Shown piece after piece: positions 24,432 through 40,241 of a DNA stretch of 46,226 nt. The DNA lies in the IMG/VR virus record IMGVR_UViG_3300032287_000541, positions 1-46,226 of that record. One strand, written 5' to 3'. This stretch comes from a virus. Made by a program: the position numbers and the translations under genes. Under the pieces are notes generated by a model that did not search any database, was not told where the DNA came from, and saw only the letters and a program-made list of their open reading frames with translations. The first letter of the stretch is position 1, and the number at the start of each line of letters is the position of its first letter.

Positions 24432-24634
24432 TTCTTGACTAAATTAGATACAGTGTTACAGAGAGTAAAGTTCTGACGTTGTAAAGCCATGAAGATAGTG
24501 ATAACATCCTCTAACCTTGTACCTTCAGAACGTAAAGCAGTTTCAATTTGTTTTAGTTTGAACTGCTGTTCCATTGTTAGCTCAATTACTGGAGCTGGGA
24601 GACCATAGTCTTGGTTCTTGATTGGTGAAATCAT
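24347..24634 (-). CDS. nblA: NblA-like phycobilisome degradation protein (95 aa)
   Basis: Residues 16-69 read VIELTMEQQFKLKQIETAL, then LEDVITIFMALQRQNF and a LVKKWP end. This fits the NblA pattern: a (F/I)EL(S/T)xEQxF opening, two helices, and a C-terminal basic/hydrophobic stretch used to contact phycobilisomes and the Clp protease. NblA triggers breakdown of the light-harvesting antenna, and phage versions are known in cyanophages. The ~25-residue C-terminal tail is extra and overlaps the DUF3310 gene by 85 bases. The 5' end overlaps the exonuclease gene by 53 bases. The alternative is an unrelated two-helix protein. Confidence 0.68.
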   Translation of the reverse strand: MISPIKNQDYGLPAPVIELTMEQQFKLKQIETALRSEGTRLEDVITIFMALQRQNFTLCNTVSNLVKKWPTPIPQTQPTTNEETLKFGTSSETKS

Positions 24635-25310
24635 AATCAGTTACTTGTAAGATCTTAGCAAGTCTAGCATTAGTAAGTGCGACATCTTCACTAAGATCTT
24701 TCTCAGCAAATGCCTTTACTACGGTATCCCAAGTGTAACCATCTTTCTCAAATAGAGCAACAGCTCGTTTGATTCCAATACCAGGTACACCAGCATAACC
24801 ATCAGTTTGATCACCAGACATTGTTTGAATGAGGTGCCAGCGATAACCTTCTTCTTTGGTGATTGTGACAACACCAGTAGATAGGTCGTATAGGTCACCA
24901 GGGATCTGTCGCATGTCCTTATCAGGGCTGCAAACTATGTTACCTGGTTCTTTAGTGGCGTAGATACCAATGGCATCATCAGCCTCTAGCTTAGGCATTA
25001 CTACAACGTGGTAATCTTCCTTGAGTTTGTTGATGACTCTTTTGTAACCGCACGGTTTCTTTCGGTTTCTATGTCCTTTATACTCTGGATCAATAGATTT
25101 ACGAAAGTTGATGTTATCAGAAAAGAAAAGAGTAGTATCATCAAAGCATCCCAAGTCAGTGGCAATGCTGAGGAGCTCTCGCTGTACTGCTTCGTAAGCT
25201 TCATTGAATCGGGAGGTGACAACGATAAGGTCTTCACCGAAATCGATTTCTGTTTCAGCTGCTGCACAGCACTTATAGACGATATAATCAGCGTCGATTA
25301 GCAAGGTCAT
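24582..25310 (-). CDS. 6: 5'-3' exonuclease, T7 gp6-like
   Basis: 242 residues with FEN/PIN-type acidic clusters: LLIDADYIVYKC (first Asp pair), MPKLEADDAIGIYA, CSPDKDMRQIPG, and SGDQTDGYAGVPGIGIKRA (helix-hairpin-helix). It degrades RNA primers and host DNA, feeding nucleotides to replication. ATG overlaps the upstream small gene (ATGA). Size is close to cyanophage homologues and a little shorter than T7 gp6 (about 300 aa). Confidence 0.93.
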   Translation of the reverse strand: MTLLIDADYIVYKCCAAAETEIDFGEDLIVVTSRFNEAYEAVQRELLSIATDLGCFDDTTLFFSDNINFRKSIDPEYKGHRNRKKPCGYKRVINKLKEDYHVVVMPKLEADDAIGIYATKEPGNIVCSPDKDMRQIPGDLYDLSTGVVTITKEEGYRWHLIQTMSGDQTDGYAGVPGIGIKRAVALFEKDGYTWDTVVKAFAEKDLSEDVALTNARLAKILQVTDYDFTNQEPRLWSPSSSN

Positions 25311-25444
25311 TTACCTTGTCCTCGTCGCAATTTTTTGGTACCTTTTGGTAAGGAACGAGTACCATTTCCTTGGTGAGTATGCTTGAACTTAGCTCGGGAT
25401 TGAAACTCAACACGACCGAGTGCGGTTTTAGATTTGACAGCCAT
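25307..25444 (-). CDS. Small basic protein upstream of the exonuclease (45 aa)
   Basis: 45 residues: MAVKSKTALGRVEFQSRAKF, then THQGNGTRSLPKGTKKLRRG and a QGK end. ATG at 25444 overlaps the upstream stop. The pattern 'GRVxFQ...RxGxGxxSxPxxxKKxxRGQG' recurs in short cyanophage proteins at this site. Strong positive charge suggests RNA or DNA binding. Function unknown. Confidence 0.75.
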   Translation of the reverse strand: MAVKSKTALGRVEFQSRAKFKHTHQGNGTRSLPKGTKKLRRGQGK

Positions 25445-25629
25445 TAGTTGTTGGTGGAATGTTTATCCATAGAGTCAAGCCAGCTGAATGTGTCAGCCAC
25501 AACAGCAGCAGTAGCAGCTGCCATTGTGTAATCAGCTTGTTTTGATTTATCATCAAATCTTGAGCTTATGTAGAGTTGCCACTTGAGTTGTTTTTCAAGG
25601 TCATCTCTACGAATCATTTGTAGTTTCAT
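25444..25629 (-). CDS. Small hypothetical protein (61 aa)
   Basis: 61 residues, ATG at 25629 (a second ATG lies 12 bases further in, at 25617). It overlaps the methylase gene end by 23 bases and the next gene by one base. The sequence is amphipathic helical (DDLEKQLKWQLYISSRFDDK) with a short Ala-rich segment (YTMAAATAAVVADTFSWL). It joins the restriction-modification pair to the replication genes. Not recognised. Confidence 0.6.
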   Translation of the reverse strand: MKLQMIRRDDLEKQLKWQLYISSRFDDKSKQADYTMAAATAAVVADTFSWLDSMDKHSTNN

Positions 25630-26428
25630 TTACGGGAGTGGATAGGTACTCATTTAATAAATAATTTATTTCATGCAGGGATAGCGCCTGTGTGTAAGCA
25701 ACATTGGTTGAGAACTTGCTATAATCGACAGCTTTTAATGCTTCAAGAGCTTTTGGATGATTTAACTTCAAGAACATTTTTGTTGTATTTGGTACTCTCT
25801 GGAAGTCAGATAGAACTTGACCACAGCCATGACCAAACACTGTTAAAGCTACATCAGCTTCTTTAGGGTCTTTAACTTTGATGATTATTTTGTTATCAGG
25901 TACACTCGTTAGAGGACGTAATTGTTCACGTCTCTGCCACACTTGGAATACAGTGGCAAGGCGGCCTTTACTAGCTTTAGTGTCTGTGATGTAGTCAATT
26001 TTCAGCTCTTCATCATGTATCTTCCAGAAGCGTTGATCCAGTCGGTTCTCAACTGACCATTTACGCCAACTTTTAGGGATGATAAACGCTATGTAATCTG
26101 ATACATCGGCGCACTTATTAAAGAACGGGATGCACAAACTATTTGCCCTACCAAACGGGGGGTTAGTGATTGTGATTACATTATGCAAGTGAGAGATGTC
26201 TTGAGTTAAAAAGTTGTCGGTTCTCAGCACAGCTTGATGTTTAGGCTCGATGTCGTACGACACGATGTCACGGTTACCAAGAGCTTCTATAAAGCTTCCA
26301 GTGCCTCCACAGGGTTCTAAGTAAGTGGGACGGGTAGTAATAGCATCCATCACTGCTACACAATGTTTAGCAACAGTAGACGGTGTGTAGTACTGTTCGG
26401 TCCCAGTTTTTCGGGTTCTACTCACCAT
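25607..26428 (-). CDS. Probable N6-adenine DNA methyltransferase
   Basis: 273 residues. SAM-dependent methylase motifs in gamma-like order: TGTEQYYTPSTVAKH (motif X region), YLEPCGGTGSFIEAL (motif I, residues 36-50), ITNPPFGR (motif IV, 87-94), then a target-recognition-type C-terminus. NPPF predicts N6-adenine methylation of duplex DNA. It starts inside the last codons of the upstream nuclease-like gene (7-base overlap), so the two form one translational unit. This pair sits where most cyanopodoviruses go straight from DNA polymerase to exonuclease. The DNA appears more AT-rich than surrounding replication genes, suggesting recent gain. A stand-alone methylase is the alternative. Confidence 0.88.
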   Translation of the reverse strand: MVSRTRKTGTEQYYTPSTVAKHCVAVMDAITTRPTYLEPCGGTGSFIEALGNRDIVSYDIEPKHQAVLRTDNFLTQDISHLHNVITITNPPFGRANSLCIPFFNKCADVSDYIAFIIPKSWRKWSVENRLDQRFWKIHDEELKIDYITDTKASKGRLATVFQVWQRREQLRPLTSVPDNKIIIKVKDPKEADVALTVFGHGCGQVLSDFQRVPNTTKMFLKLNHPKALEALKAVDYSKFSTNVAYTQALSLHEINYLLNEYLSTPVNETTNDS

Positions 26429-27030
26429 GCTTTGTGGAATTTAATTAGTGATAACTCTTCCAGCATCTCTTGAATGCCAAACTCATTACTTGTGTTACAA
26501 TTACAAGTAATCTGCTTGAGTCCAGAGGACCCTTCTCCAGTATGACCATTTTTGTATGTAGATAACATCTGTAGATTTTCCCTACTGATTAGATAGAAGT
26601 TGATGCCATTTGTTTGGACAAAGGTCAAAGCTACAAATGTGCTTTTGTCATTACGTATTTGATTTACCCATCCATTAGAAACAATGGAGAGAACATTTTC
26701 TTTGTAAGTAACAAAGCAAGTTTTAACTTCAATGTGCGCTCCTACTAGAACTTGGTATTCTGGTGGAGCTTTAAACACTTTAATGTCTCCTTGATTGGAG
26801 ATTTTTTTCCCATGAACATCAAAACACAAAAGACCTTTTAACCACGCTTTAGTGCCAAACAAACCCTTACTTTGGTTTGATGATCTACGTTGCTCATTAA
26901 CCCAATTTGGTGCATTTTGTTTCCAGTAATCATTGTTAAATTTACTGTCACTTACTGCACATTCTTCTAAATCAAAATCTACGTGGACGCTTGACTCCAC
27001 GGGCTTTTGCTGATAAACTTTTTTCGACAT
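26422..27030 (-). CDS. Putative restriction endonuclease, PD-(D/E)XK type, paired with the methylase
   Basis: 202 residues, ATG at 27030 with GAGGAA just upstream. A plausible nuclease core is present: NQGDIKVFK (Asp82), AHIEVKTCFVTY (Glu101-x-Lys103), then WVNQIRNDKSTFVALTFVQTNG and INFYLISRENL. These match the D...ExK arrangement followed by a beta-strand common in type II restriction enzymes. Adjacency to an adenine methylase in a coupled arrangement is the strongest functional clue. No obvious specificity can be read. Alternatives are a Vsr-like or Holliday-type nuclease. Base composition is AT-rich relative to neighbours. Confidence 0.65.
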   Translation of the reverse strand: MSKKVYQQKPVESSVHVDFDLEECAVSDSKFNNDYWKQNAPNWVNEQRRSSNQSKGLFGTKAWLKGLLCFDVHGKKISNQGDIKVFKAPPEYQVLVGAHIEVKTCFVTYKENVLSIVSNGWVNQIRNDKSTFVALTFVQTNGINFYLISRENLQMLSTYKNGHTGEGSSGLKQITCNCNTSNEFGIQEMLEELSLIKFHKAW

Positions 27031-27117
27031 TGTTCCTCAATGTCACCGGGAGGAAGCGCCACCACGCTTTCTTCCACCCGACGACTTATACGTTAGTGGA
27101 TAGGTTTGTGATTGTGA
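27031..27117 (-). promoter_or_regulatory. Leader with strong hairpin before the restriction-like gene
   Basis: The 87-base gap after the DNA polymerase stop holds a GC-rich inverted repeat on the minus strand (GGGTGGAAG ... CTTCCTCCC, with an inner AGCG/CGCT stem). It lies about 15 bases before a clear GAGGAA ribosome site. It may be a processing or attenuation site for the restriction-modification pair. No terminator T-run follows. Confidence 0.5.
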
Positions 27118-28368
27118 TTAGTGAACATCTGCCCAGGTGTTGCCAATCTTTCCTTCTGCTGCAATAGGGATTCGGAGGTTGTAGTATTCGCCAGCCATTA
27201 CAGCTGACAGCTCTAGCTTGAACTTCAAGTCCTCAGCTAGCTCAGGTGTGGTCTCCCACTGAAGCTCGTCGTGAACGAACGCTAATTGGTGCCCAGGAGC
27301 GTCTGCAGCAAGCACCATCCACCTCTTGGCTATAACACCCGCAGATGATTGCAAGAGGTAATTGAGAGCCTTGTGGGGGCTATCTACAGCGATCCTTCTA
27401 CTATCTACTGACTTGATAAAGCCCCGCTCACCAGCTTGACGAACAGCGGTAAGAAGACTATCCAGGCCGTCAATGGCAGCAACATAAGCGGCTCGTATCT
27501 CAGCGCCTTTTTCTTTTGCCTTGTTCGGGGAAAGGCTTGGGTCATAACTGAATCCGATTTTCTGATCACCCGCTCCATAAAGAAATGCATAAGTTACTGT
27601 TTTAACTAAGCGTCTACTGATACCAATCTTGTCTGCGTTCTCCTGATGAATGTCACCGTTGAGAAGAACATCTCCGTACCTGCCTCCATCATATCTAGCC
27701 AGATAATGGGCAAGCATTCGCAGTTCAATCCCTGAGAGGTCAGCACCAACCATGACATAGCCAGGGCTAGCGATGAATAGCTTTCTAAAGTTAAGATCAC
27801 TGGGTACTTGAGCAAGGTTCGGGTTACGATGAGCACACCTATGTGTGTTCGTAGCTACTGAACAATGGTGATGAATACGGTTACCTTTGACAAGCTTTAG
27901 CCAGGCATTCTTGCCCTCAGACAACATGCCAAGTTGTTTAGTAAGCTCAAGGCATCTGAAGAACTGCAGGGCTTCCTCTGTGCCGATATCCTTGAGTACA
28001 GTCTCATCAATGGCAGTCTTGCCACTTGCTGTCTCTTTATCGGGCACCCAGCCATGATGGTTCTTCATGATCCATGCAATGTGATCACGACTGGTAGGAT
28101 TGAACTCCTTTAATTTAGTTAGCGTAGCACCAGCTACATAACCTTGGGTTTTGTTAGGTCGCTTAGGAGTGAACTCTTGCCCTGCAACGTAAGGGTACCG
28201 CTTGCGTAGTAATTGATTAAGGTTGTCAAGTTCTGAGTAGAGAGTTTGTGCAAGTTCCCGTGCAGCATTCTCGTCAAAGTACCATCCATGTAATTCTTGG
28301 GTGGTGAGGATGGAGGCGACATCATGTTCTAATTTGATGAAATCAGGTAGGGGTGGAAGTGTTGCCAT
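27118..28368 (-). CDS. 5B: DNA polymerase, polymerase-domain ORF
   Basis: 416 residues with family-A polymerase motifs. Motif A is VMVGADLSGIELRMLAHYLARYDGG (Asp210). Motif B is SRRLVKTVTYAFLYGAGDQ (Lys256, Tyr260). Motif C is AFVHDELQWE (His366-Asp367-Glu368). It is the synthesising half of a T7-like gp5. The ATG (28368) has no convincing Shine-Dalgarno and overlaps the exonuclease ORF by 40 bases in the -1 frame. Reading one extra C in the CCCC run at 28350-28353 would join HFHP to LPDFIKLEHDV and make a normal ~585-residue polymerase. So this is a true split gene, a -1 frameshift product, or a one-base sequence error. Confidence 0.93.
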   Translation of the reverse strand: MATLPPLPDFIKLEHDVASILTTQELHGWYFDENAARELAQTLYSELDNLNQLLRKRYPYVAGQEFTPKRPNKTQGYVAGATLTKLKEFNPTSRDHIAWIMKNHHGWVPDKETASGKTAIDETVLKDIGTEEALQFFRCLELTKQLGMLSEGKNAWLKLVKGNRIHHHCSVATNTHRCAHRNPNLAQVPSDLNFRKLFIASPGYVMVGADLSGIELRMLAHYLARYDGGRYGDVLLNGDIHQENADKIGISRRLVKTVTYAFLYGAGDQKIGFSYDPSLSPNKAKEKGAEIRAAYVAAIDGLDSLLTAVRQAGERGFIKSVDSRRIAVDSPHKALNYLLQSSAGVIAKRWMVLAADAPGHQLAFVHDELQWETTPELAEDLKFKLELSAVMAGEYYNLRIPIAAEGKIGNTWADVH

Positions 28369-35093: not shown

Positions 35094-35675
35094 TCAGTTG
35101 TTACGAAAGAAGAACGTACCGTTGTTGGTCTCGATGTAGTTGAAGTCATAACGTAGGTTATGATCCCACACATCCTGCCAATCAACAGCACTGAGGACAC
35201 ACTCTGGGATCTCAGCTCCAAGGACATCAATGCACCAGTACTCAGCGAACTCCTTCTCAGCATACGATGAGTAGCTATCGTGGGTATACTCGTATGCCTC
35301 TTCGAAGTCATTAGCACTGGTGATGCCAATGTCATCTAGTTCCTCCATGAACTCAATCGTCTCCTCATGTGTCCACTTCTCACCAAGCATCTCAGTGATC
35401 TTGTCATACAGGTCCTTGTCATCATTACTGAGATCATCATACTCCTGTTCCATAGTGTCAGTGTCAGTGGTCGGTACTACACCCTTAGCATTGAGGAGCT
35501 CTGTGTAGAACTGTACATACATCGCCTTACCATTGTCATAGACATAGCCAGCATCCTTGATCATATCAGTGCGTGTTAGCTCACCGCGATCAATGAGTTC
35601 TTTACGCTCATCGACGAATGCAACAAGTGAATCACCGCGTAGCATAACAGTAGGGATAGGTGTGGTAGTAGACAT
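35094..35675 (-). CDS. ArdA-like anti-restriction protein
   Basis: 193 residues from ATG at 35675 (an upstream TTG at 35714 is less likely). Strongly acidic. The C-terminal part resembles ArdA: ANDFEEAYEYTHDSYSSYAEKEFAEYW, then LGAEIPECVLSAVDWQDVWDHNL and NNGTFFF. ArdA family proteins mimic DNA and block restriction enzymes, mainly type I, and are made early in infection. The N-terminal domains are less canonical. Its presence in the early region and the restriction-methylation pair at 25.6-27.0 kb suggest restriction matters for this phage. Confidence 0.65.
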   Translation of the reverse strand: MSTTTPIPTVMLRGDSLVAFVDERKELIDRGELTRTDMIKDAGYVYDNGKAMYVQFYTELLNAKGVVPTTDTDTMEQEYDDLSNDDKDLYDKITEMLGEKWTHEETIEFMEELDDIGITSANDFEEAYEYTHDSYSSYAEKEFAEYWCIDVLGAEIPECVLSAVDWQDVWDHNLRYDFNYIETNNGTFFFRNN

Positions 35676-37420: not shown

Positions 37421-38043
37421 ATTGCCTCACATGTACTGGGGAGGTGTTGGTAGAGGAGGTCTTGTATTTGTCCAGCAATAACGGCGTGTTCTTTTTGTGT
37501 ACCATTACTAGTCCTGAGGTCACAATAGTGAAGCCAAGATCTGATGGTACCATTCATGTATAGTCGAGTTGGTGTTGCTAATGGTAACACCTCACGGGCA
37601 CATTCCTTAGCTACGCCACGTGCTATCATGTCTTTATAGATATTATACGCATCACCATACAACTGACCAATACGGTACTCAAACTCATCCCGTATACTTT
37701 GATCTAAATCATCGATACTGTTCTGTCTGTTCTTGATGTCCTGTCTACGGAGCTCTGGTAACTCTGCAGGGATAGGTACCTCAGCGTATCTTTGGGAGAA
37801 CTCCTGAAAGCTAAAGGACCTATGCCGTAGGATTTGTGCTGCTATACTCCTTGTTGTCTCAATAGATACACACATGTTAACCATCTCAAATGGTGACCAA
37901 TGGTTATGAGTAATGAGGTACTTAATTAGTTTAGCACTGGTCTCAGTGTTTGACTGGTTAGAGGGATTACTAACACGTGCCATGTAACTAATAAGTCCTT
38001 CAGCATTAGGTGTGATGTGTACTAGAGATACTTGGTGGGTCAT
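37405..38043 (-). CDS. thyX: FAD-dependent thymidylate synthase
   Basis: 212 residues from ATG at 38043 (the TTG one codon upstream is not needed). ThyX signature RHRSFSFQEFSQRY is complete; VSNPSNQSNTETSAKLIKYLITHNHWSPFEM and LPLATPTRLYMNGTIRSWLHYCDLR also match. It converts dUMP to dTMP using FAD and methylene-tetrahydrofolate. It stands apart from the RNR/MazG group, at the presumed left end of the genome, so it should be expressed very early. Flanked on both sides by repeat- and hairpin-rich gene-free DNA. Confidence 0.97.
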   Translation of the reverse strand: MTHQVSLVHITPNAEGLISYMARVSNPSNQSNTETSAKLIKYLITHNHWSPFEMVNMCVSIETTRSIAAQILRHRSFSFQEFSQRYAEVPIPAELPELRRQDIKNRQNSIDDLDQSIRDEFEYRIGQLYGDAYNIYKDMIARGVAKECAREVLPLATPTRLYMNGTIRSWLHYCDLRTSNGTQKEHAVIAGQIQDLLYQHLPSTCEAMWNSP

Positions 38044-38317
38044 CAATTAGTGGAGGTAATGGGAGAGTTAATAACAGTAGTAACAGTAATAAGAACCTCG
38101 CTACGCTCGGTTACTTATACACTATTCACAGTATTAACTTAGTAATAGTGTGGGTTAGTGGAATGTTTGTGTCTTTTGGTTATACAGTACTTACAGTAAT
38201 AACCGCCTACGGCGTGTTATACAGTAAAGAAAATTTAACCCCCTCTAGAATGACTTATGTTAACTTCCCCAAGGTTAACTGTCTAGAGAGTAATAGTAAC
38301 TGGTGGACGTAGATAAA
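38044..38317. other. Gene-free stretch between terminase and thyX with hairpins and short repeats
   Basis: Contains four or more copies of ACAGTAATAA/CAGTANTAAC-like words. Hairpins lie at 38089-38118 and 38199-38220 (ATAAC-CGCC-TAC-GGCG-T-GTTAT). A nested inverted repeat at 38243-38288 has CTCTAGA ... TCTAGAG outside and GTTAAC ... GTTAAC inside. An AATTTAA-CCCCC block with TTATGTTAA nearby repeats a pattern also seen near 37064-37088. In T7-like phages the physical genome ends lie between terminase and the early genes, so this is the best candidate for the packaging/terminal-repeat region. Confidence 0.5.
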
Positions 38318-38353
38318 GAGGAAGATGTGTCTTATTAAAGACATGTCTTCCTC
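38318..38353 (-). terminator. Hairpin terminator downstream of the large terminase
   Basis: GAGGAAGA and TCTTCCTC arms (8 bp), a 2x2 internal loop, a further 6-bp stem and a TAAT loop, followed by TTTATCT on the minus strand. It is about 80 bases after the terminase stop, at the end of the late transcript. A second weaker CCACCC/GGGTGG stem lies at 38371-38400. Confidence 0.75.
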
Positions 38354-38432
38354 CCTTTGGCAAATGTGATCCACCCTTCACATCTGCCTATACGGGTGGG
38401 ATCTCAAAAGCCATTGCACTGTAAAGGTTTTA

Positions 38433-40241
38433 TCAATTAACCCAAGTTGGTACACCTTTGGTTGTTTTCTTACCTCTTGCTTGTCTACGTTGTTCTAAGT
38501 TAAACCCCAACACCAAATGGTTGGTAGCAGCTTGTGGGTCATCCATGAATGTCTCTAGGATGTCATTCCAGTCTTCTTGTTTACGCTGTTTAACTGCTTC
38601 ATATGCACTAATACCCATTGCATCTGTGAAGTACTTAACACCTTGTGCTAGTGAGTCTAATCTGTCGTCATGTTTAACTGCACCTTTTTCACGACACATC
38701 CTACTCATTTGGTAGAACAGCATATACAGTAGTCTCTCCTCTGGTGCTGCATCCTTGTTGGAGTTATAGTCCCACTCTACAACAGCTCTATCAACAATTA
38801 ACTTATGTTGATTCATAACAGGTTCTAATGCATCAATAATACGATCTTCTTTACGTACATTAGCTCGTACCTCTTCTACATCAATAGCTTGTTTGGTCTG
38901 TTGTAGGTGCTTCTTGAATAGTTCTGCTACAATACCATCACCAAAGTTAGTCTCAATGAGTAGTTTGGTAACATTGTACTTCTTACACCCTCTCAGGATG
39001 TCAAGAAGTGTAGCATCACTATAACCATCCCGATACGCTCTTACTTCGTGAACATAGAGGAAGCCATTCTTTTGTGAGATGTATGTAGCTGCCGTCTCGT
39101 CACTACCACGACCACTAGGGTCCACAGAGCATATAGTTTCACTGTATGGTCCCCAGTCACCTTGTAGTTGCATGGGACTGTAGAAGTAATCCCCAGGTAA
39201 TCCAACTGTCGGTAGATCCTTTAGCATGTTACGTGGATCACTACACCACACCACAGCATCAGGTGCTTGAGTGGGGTTAACAGACGTTACTACTAAATCG
39301 CTAAATTTGAGTGGGAACTTTTCTGCATCACTAAGTGCCGTATCTAATTGGAATTGTAACATGAAGTTACTACGACCCATAGCAGCTTCACGTTCTACTA
39401 GATCTTCATCAGTAAAGCGATCTGGGTCTGTTGGTGTCCATTCATCTGCACCCATCTCAATGTCTTCCATGATCTGTGGAGCAAGGAGGCTTTCATATTG
39501 AGATAGTTTATCTTTGCGTGGATAACGTGATGGCCACACAAAGGGACGGTAATTACGTTCTGCTAACTTACGGTAGACAGTAAAGGTAGTCTGTGGTGTA
39601 CCGAGGTACATAATCCTACTGTCTTTCTTTGGTGTAAGGATGGATTCAGCCTCCGTACAAAGTTGTAGTAGCTTCTCTCGCATCAGTTCTGTCATTGAGT
39701 TACCTGGAACCTCAACGTCATCAAGAATCATCAGGTCAGCACGGCTACCTGTTAGTTGACCTGTGATGCCTACACTCTTCACGGATGGTGCTTGGTGTGG
39801 GCTACAGTTAACATCAAAGCTAATACGTGACCATCGTGCTTCATCCGACTTAGGTCTTAGATGACAAAGCCACGGTGTCTCAATAATTAACTTCTGTAGG
39901 AAGATGGACATGTTATCAGCACGTTCTTTTGAGGCACTAATAATCATGATCTTCTTTTCTGCATCATTGAAGAGTGTCCACAACACAAACGCTCCAGTAA
40001 TCCAGCTCTTACCGACTCCTCGGAAGGCTTGGATCTGTAGTCGCTTAGGACCATGTTGTAGATAATCAGCAATAGCGTACTGTGCTCTCGTTGGAGAAGG
40101 AAGGTCAAGCTGATTCCATAGTGCTTGAAGGAAGAGCTTAAAATCACCTCTAAGGGCTGTTAAAGTGTCCATATAGGGAAACATACTGTGGTGGGAAGAG
40201 AGGCACCTTGTAGGGGCTTCTAGGTACCTCTCATGGGGCAT
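38433..40241 (-). CDS. 19: Terminase large subunit (DNA maturase B)
   Basis: Up to 602 residues. ATPase motifs: AFRGVGKSWITG (Walker A, 73-80) and DLMILDDVEVPG (Walker B, 170-175). Nuclease motifs are SVDPSGRGSDETA (Asp374) and HDDRLDSLAQG. It cuts concatemers and drives DNA into the procapsid. Family members usually begin at the residues aligned with MDTLTALRGDFKLF, so the ATG at 40172 (579 aa) may be the real start. Neither ATG has a convincing ribosome site. It is the last late gene before the terminator. Confidence 0.97.
   Translation of the reverse strand: MPHERYLEAPTRCLSSHHSMFPYMDTLTALRGDFKLFLQALWNQLDLPSPTRAQYAIADYLQHGPKRLQIQAFRGVGKSWITGAFVLWTLFNDAEKKIMIISASKERADNMSIFLQKLIIETPWLCHLRPKSDEARWSRISFDVNCSPHQAPSVKSVGITGQLTGSRADLMILDDVEVPGNSMTELMREKLLQLCTEAESILTPKKDSRIMYLGTPQTTFTVYRKLAERNYRPFVWPSRYPRKDKLSQYESLLAPQIMEDIEMGADEWTPTDPDRFTDEDLVEREAAMGRSNFMLQFQLDTALSDAEKFPLKFSDLVVTSVNPTQAPDAVVWCSDPRNMLKDLPTVGLPGDYFYSPMQLQGDWGPYSETICSVDPSGRGSDETAATYISQKNGFLYVHEVRAYRDGYSDATLLDILRGCKKYNVTKLLIETNFGDGIVAELFKKHLQQTKQAIDVEEVRANVRKEDRIIDALEPVMNQHKLIVDRAVVEWDYNSNKDAAPEERLLYMLFYQMSRMCREKGAVKHDDRLDSLAQGVKYFTDAMGISAYEAVKQRKQEDWNDILETFMDDPQAATNHLVLGFNLEQRRQARGKKTTKGVPTWVN

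Follow-up and report, generated by a model that had tools for sequence, protein, structure and literature searches.

Two virus groups with complete restriction-modification (R-M) systems are among the described parallels to the locus studied here. In marseilleviruses, the host DNA was not degraded and exclusion of rivals was proposed as the role of the system (PMC7253447). In chloroviruses, degradation of host chromatin was proposed, and the restriction enzymes were not the cause of exclusion there (PMC7019647). Both roles have therefore already been put forward for viruses. Here we describe a locus in a viral DNA of 46,226 nucleotides (IMG/VR record IMGVR_UViG_3300032287_000541, the whole of which is called the window below). 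Judged from sequence, this locus very probably is a complete type II R-M module of predicted enzymes that was horizontally acquired by a T7-like cyanopodovirus, and the R-M interpretation of the original prediction is supported.

Both genes were found on the minus strand where they had been predicted. R, a putative type II restriction endonuclease resembling PD-(D/E)XK enzymes (26422..27030, 202 aa, P0001), overlaps by 7 nt the gene M for a predicted DNA adenine-N6 methyltransferase (25607..26428, 273 aa, P0002). Read along the coding strand, the polymerase gene comes first, then R and M, then orf61, orf45 and the exonuclease gene. The DNA polymerase gene (27118-28368) adjoins R and the gp6-like exonuclease gene (24582-25310) lies beyond M on the far side from R, as predicted, with two small ORFs separating M from the exonuclease. 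The first of these, orf61 (25444..25629, minus strand, 61 aa), has no assigned function and shares 23 nt with the 3' end of M; it had no homologue among phage records and might be a third gene of the cassette. The second, orf45 (25307-25444), lies between orf61 and the exonuclease. Ribonucleotide reductase genes are also found near the pair, along with the polymerase and the exonuclease.

The R and M genes are separate and adjacent, no helicase or specificity subunit is present within the cassette, and R has just 202 residues, which is the arrangement of a type II system. At 36% GC, the probability that a frame stays open over 202 codons by chance is about 5e-7. The locus had been described as more AT-rich than its surroundings, which is true of R (36.1% GC, window 44.2%) and only mildly so of M (41.4%); the polymerase and exonuclease genes have 47.5% and 42.1% GC. 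No tyrosine integrase was found in the window, an IMG/VR record for which completeness is not given, and this fits a lytic life style but is no proof of it. Elsewhere in the window, the minus-strand gene at 35097-35669 shares 69% identity with a protein of Synechococcus phage DSL-LC07 annotated as 'antirestriction protein'. The phage thus seems to carry an anti-restriction gene in addition to its own R-M pair.

Relative to four related phages, the window contains a clean insertion of about 1.67 kb (25445..27116) that comprises R, M and orf61. When aligned with DSL-LC07, the window matched up to 25444 and again from 27116, and DSL-LC07 has 12 bp between the two flanks. In S-CBP1 the two flanks abut directly. 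The gene orf45 adjoins the polymerase in S-CBP3 and S-CBP4, as in S-CBP1 and DSL-LC07, and none of the four carries the cassette. In the S-CBP1 interval (L002, 11411-13503) the polymerase and orf45 are present yet unannotated, and the same holds for S-CBP3 and S-CBP4. A gain in the window is favoured because the alternative, loss in four relatives, is less simple. The R-M pair is flanked by an imperfect direct repeat of 17 nt (25631..25647 and 27089..27105, 15/17 identical), the weight of which is limited by the occurrence of several repeats of about 17 nt in the inserted segment. Other imperfect direct repeats of 17-18 nt lie near the cassette edges (26161-26178 and 27103-27120). The edge repeats are possibly recombination footprints.

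Family membership and modelled fold both mark M as a methyltransferase. The two methylase motifs noted originally are both present, EPCGGTGSF as motif I (E38-P39-x-G41-G42-T43-G44-x-F46) and NPPF as motif IV (N89-P-P-F), and they were invariant in eight homologues. The SAM-binding motif I precedes the catalytic motif IV, which is the order of the gamma group and makes M a predicted gamma-class N6-adenine methyltransferase; the NPPF motif and the family point to adenine N6 as the methylation target. M matched the PADLOC model MTase_II (5.8e-29) and PHROG 5172 (3e-41), and its AlphaFold model (pLDDT 82.6) matched class I methyltransferases, with KsgA-like adenine methylases among the first. Homologues share up to 59% identity in viral contigs, and many actinobacterial ones (Rhodoluna, Aquiluna, Blastococcus) share 46-57%. 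M is under purifying selection in the related contigs L008/L015 (dN 0.090, dS 0.64, dN/dS about 0.14). The N6-adenine methylases of Phapecoctavirus/phAPEC8-type phages are homologous to M (about 30% over 91%); unlike the paired M of the window, they are annotated as stand-alone methyltransferases or as 'DarB-like anti-restriction'.

The assignment of R as a nuclease was the weak part of the original prediction. It is now well supported by sequence, and R can be taken as a predicted PD-(D/E)XK type II endonuclease. The residues D82, E101 and K103 were confirmed at the predicted positions, and their motif and spacing fit the PD-(D/E)XK active site. All three were kept in 14 of 14 aligned homologues, so that the catalytic D ... 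(D/E)-x-K pattern is conserved across the family and the loss of these residues that would have spoken against a nuclease did not occur. W36, G56 and G59 were likewise invariant. Further motif elements of R are K55-G56-x-x-G59, W121-x-N-Q-I-R126 and H163-x-G165. A profile HMM of the family from which P0001 had been left out scored R at 50.7 bits (E = 2.8e-15) among the 306 stop-to-stop ORFs of the window, the next-best ORF reaching 2.6 bits and 500 shuffles of P0001 at most 5.7 bits. Purifying selection also acts on R in L008/L015 (dN 0.059, dS 0.52, dN/dS about 0.11), and the nuclease is therefore maintained in those relatives.

The family is hard to reach by direct search. P0001 alone had no significant match in curated libraries (Pfam, NCBIfam, PHROGs, PDB sequences, PADLOC), and therefore none to a non-nuclease family in Pfam, NCBIfam or PDB sequences, while its relatives matched a type II restriction endonuclease model. 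Neither direct tblastn with R on phages and plasmids nor a direct scan of viral contigs yielded anything useful, and the R profile found none in the genome collection. Homologues were reached solely via the neighbour gene of M homologues, followed by profile iteration. The starting point was a 178-aa gene upstream of an M homologue in the viral contig L003, which was 32% identical to P0001 over 102 aa (E = 2e-8 as a single comparison). Structure added no support: the AlphaFold model of R was poor (mean pLDDT 59) and Foldseek gave no match in PDB or BFVD. In this model the predicted elements H52-68, E73-76, E83-87 and E99-105 would place D82 and E101/K103 on neighbouring strands.

By profile-profile comparison, the R family is related to a group of proteins from cyanomyoviruses and marine viruses (S-ShM2, P-SSM7, S-SSM4, ACG-2014f, AG-345-E15; probability 98.1, E = 9.3e-14). 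Members from S-ShM2, P-SSM7, S-SSM4 and ACG-2014f matched the PADLOC restriction endonuclease profile REase_II PDLC03515 at 1.4e-22 to 2e-7. The individual values were 1.4e-22 for P0006 (S-ShM2), 3e-10 for P0020, 6e-10 for P0021, 2e-7 for P0019 and 1e-4 for P0022; P0003 gave 0.0085 over most of its length. The R of the window, which differs by an extended N-terminal part and by extra residues inserted ahead of E101, fell below the threshold of this profile. A search with the profile was silent on the window and equally on its control genomes, and is thus uninformative. Homologues in S-ShM2, S-RIM14, S-SSM4 and ACG-2014f belong to the same nuclease family by profile, and so does S-BM3 WDS61094.1, already annotated as 'restriction endonuclease'; no annotated methyltransferase is adjacent in those of their records that were covered. 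A complete R-M system in a lytic phage had been called unusual. This has to be tempered, as related nuclease genes are known in several cyanomyoviruses, mostly under the name 'hypothetical protein'.

Like the window, P-SSM7 and AG-345-E15 have an R-family nuclease gene directly before methylase genes, a few nucleotides apart or with a 7-nt overlap. Two PF01555 methylases come after the R-family gene in P-SSM7 (PSSM7_054 to 056; 2456-4729 of L132, which is P-SSM7 37440-39713), whereas AG-345-E15 has a single similar methylase there, with the 7-nt overlap. The methylases differ from the M of the window, to which they are unrelated: they have the beta-class motif order and M has the gamma order. 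One nuclease family therefore partners two methylase classes of differing motif order. At both loci the R gene is annotated as 'hypothetical protein' and the methylases as 'DNA adenine methylase' (dam in P-SSM7). The P-SSM7 locus is a probable, unrecognised R-M system in a well-known Prochlorococcus phage.

Besides the window, R lies beside M in six independent contigs (L003, L008, L015, L029, L045 and L022). The two genes overlap by 1-26 nt in the first five, and in L022 the order is reversed, with R downstream of M. A further pair is present in L130, a metagenome-assembled genome (MAG) contig labelled Opitutia (1513-2936). Scanning by R-family patterns alone gave seven distinct contigs, six of which (6/7) had M adjacent. 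Among these, L045 was absent from the M scan and new in the R-pattern scan, so its linkage is not a search artefact. R-like genes without the window type of M (A7 type) in the same record were found in S-ShM2 and L041, and the nuclease may therefore also serve alone.

The two partners differ in their divergence. L130 and L029 share an M that is 83% identical and an R that is 25% identical, and R appears from this comparison to have been replaced while M was retained. Between the window and L003, R is 31% and M 59% identical, which would fit an R that changes fast or has been replaced. With R diverging far more than M, the R of the window may have changed specificity or be slowly decaying. A second nuclease-like family, with a GGQG..PD..E-like pattern, overlaps the start of M homologues in L026 (2273-2959), L028 (2298-2972) and L035 (2384-2959); it had no significant Pfam or PADLOC match and is apparently unrelated to R. 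A third candidate nuclease, with the pattern DL(V/I)D..YE(V/I)K, is beside or convergent with M in L085 (4851-5429, minus strand), L094, L099, L092, L117 and L027 (3919-4515). It occurs in Blastococcus and other Actinobacteria, and L027 is a viral contig. The second and third candidates are motif-level calls only. The R family pairs with methylases of either the gamma or the beta class, and at least three unrelated candidate nucleases accompany the M family. This suggests a tentative picture, to which we give somewhat less than even credence: miniature type II R-M modules may circulate as a common pool among marine and freshwater phages, with R and M swapped independently, and may serve as weapons between phages in the infected cell.

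A hairpin had been proposed in the leader of R (27031..27117, minus strand). A potential GACAUUG-AGGAA-CAAUGUC stem-loop can be drawn there, but the predicted fold (-26.5 kcal/mol over 98 nt) had z = -1.6 and 12 of 200 shuffles were as good, which is no more than chance; we rejected the hairpin as a significant element. The 7-bp stem-loop takes in the start codon of R and the AGGAA that resembles a Shine-Dalgarno sequence, and one could speculate that this structure slows R translation. Sigma-70 promoters were not above chance.

We infer that the two enzymes are active, recognise a common target site and are co-expressed. While phage DNA is replicating, M would methylate adenine within a short target sequence on it, and R, presumably made from the same transcript, would cut unmodified copies of the target. 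Phage DNA would bear the modification by the time it is packaged; after replication it would be hemimethylated and then re-methylated. Cleavage would thus fall on unmarked DNA, that of co-infecting or superinfecting phages, and also on the host chromosome where that lacks methylation at its sites. In our view the most likely role, held with moderate confidence, is to destroy competing DNA, and this role is not exclusive with host DNA breakdown.

Ranked second, and rather unlikely as the main role, is an R-M pair in the service of the replication module, in which R would recycle the nucleotides of host DNA and M would shield phage DNA. That genes for polymerase, exonuclease and ribonucleotide reductase surround the locus agrees with this, as do the chlorovirus systems proposed to degrade host chromatin (PMC7019647) and the R-like genes that cyanomyoviruses carry without the A7 type of M. 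However, the pair is missing from four close relatives that share this replication module, which argues for an optional trait and not for something that the group requires to break down host DNA, and a complete marseillevirus system left host DNA undegraded (PMC7253447).

It is improbable that M alone is functional, as an anti-restriction methylase against host restriction, with its neighbour a degenerate or functionally different leftover. Many M homologues in phages and Actinobacteria do occur without a window-type R alongside, phage methylases of this family annotated as stand-alone are common, and R is far more diverged than M. Against this, the catalytic D/E/K residues of R are intact, its frame is open and overlaps M, and purifying selection acts on R in the relatives tested (L008/L015). 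A free-standing homing-type endonuclease spreading the cassette among phages is highly improbable and was rejected: the clean insertion between two conserved genes, the 17-nt repeat at the flanks and the existence of a PD-(D/E)XK homing family (PMC6083498) would suit it, but relatives of R match a restriction-enzyme profile, and R homologues lie not at one conserved target but beside M at varied loci in unrelated phages and beside different methyltransferase classes, which fits R-M and not single-site homing.

A compact, complete R-M system would be of interest here in several respects. Its carrier, a T7-like cyanophage, belongs to a type of virus that can be cultivated, so that what a lytic virus gains from restriction, recycling of host DNA or exclusion of rivals, can be tested. 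The family of R is spread by phages and nearly unrecognised in public protein databases; its study provides proteins called 'hypothetical' in several well-studied cyanomyoviruses with a probable function as nucleases and offers a source of small new restriction enzymes. Like the type II systems of chloroviruses and marseilleviruses (PMC7019647, PMC7253447), the window has adjacent complete R and M genes in what may be a lytic virus, a likeness of gene arrangement to these viruses of eukaryotes, with host DNA degradation or exclusion of rivals as proposed roles. As type II R-M is already known in both groups, the kind of system is familiar, and the interest of this locus lies in a phage lineage whose R and M partners are exchangeable.
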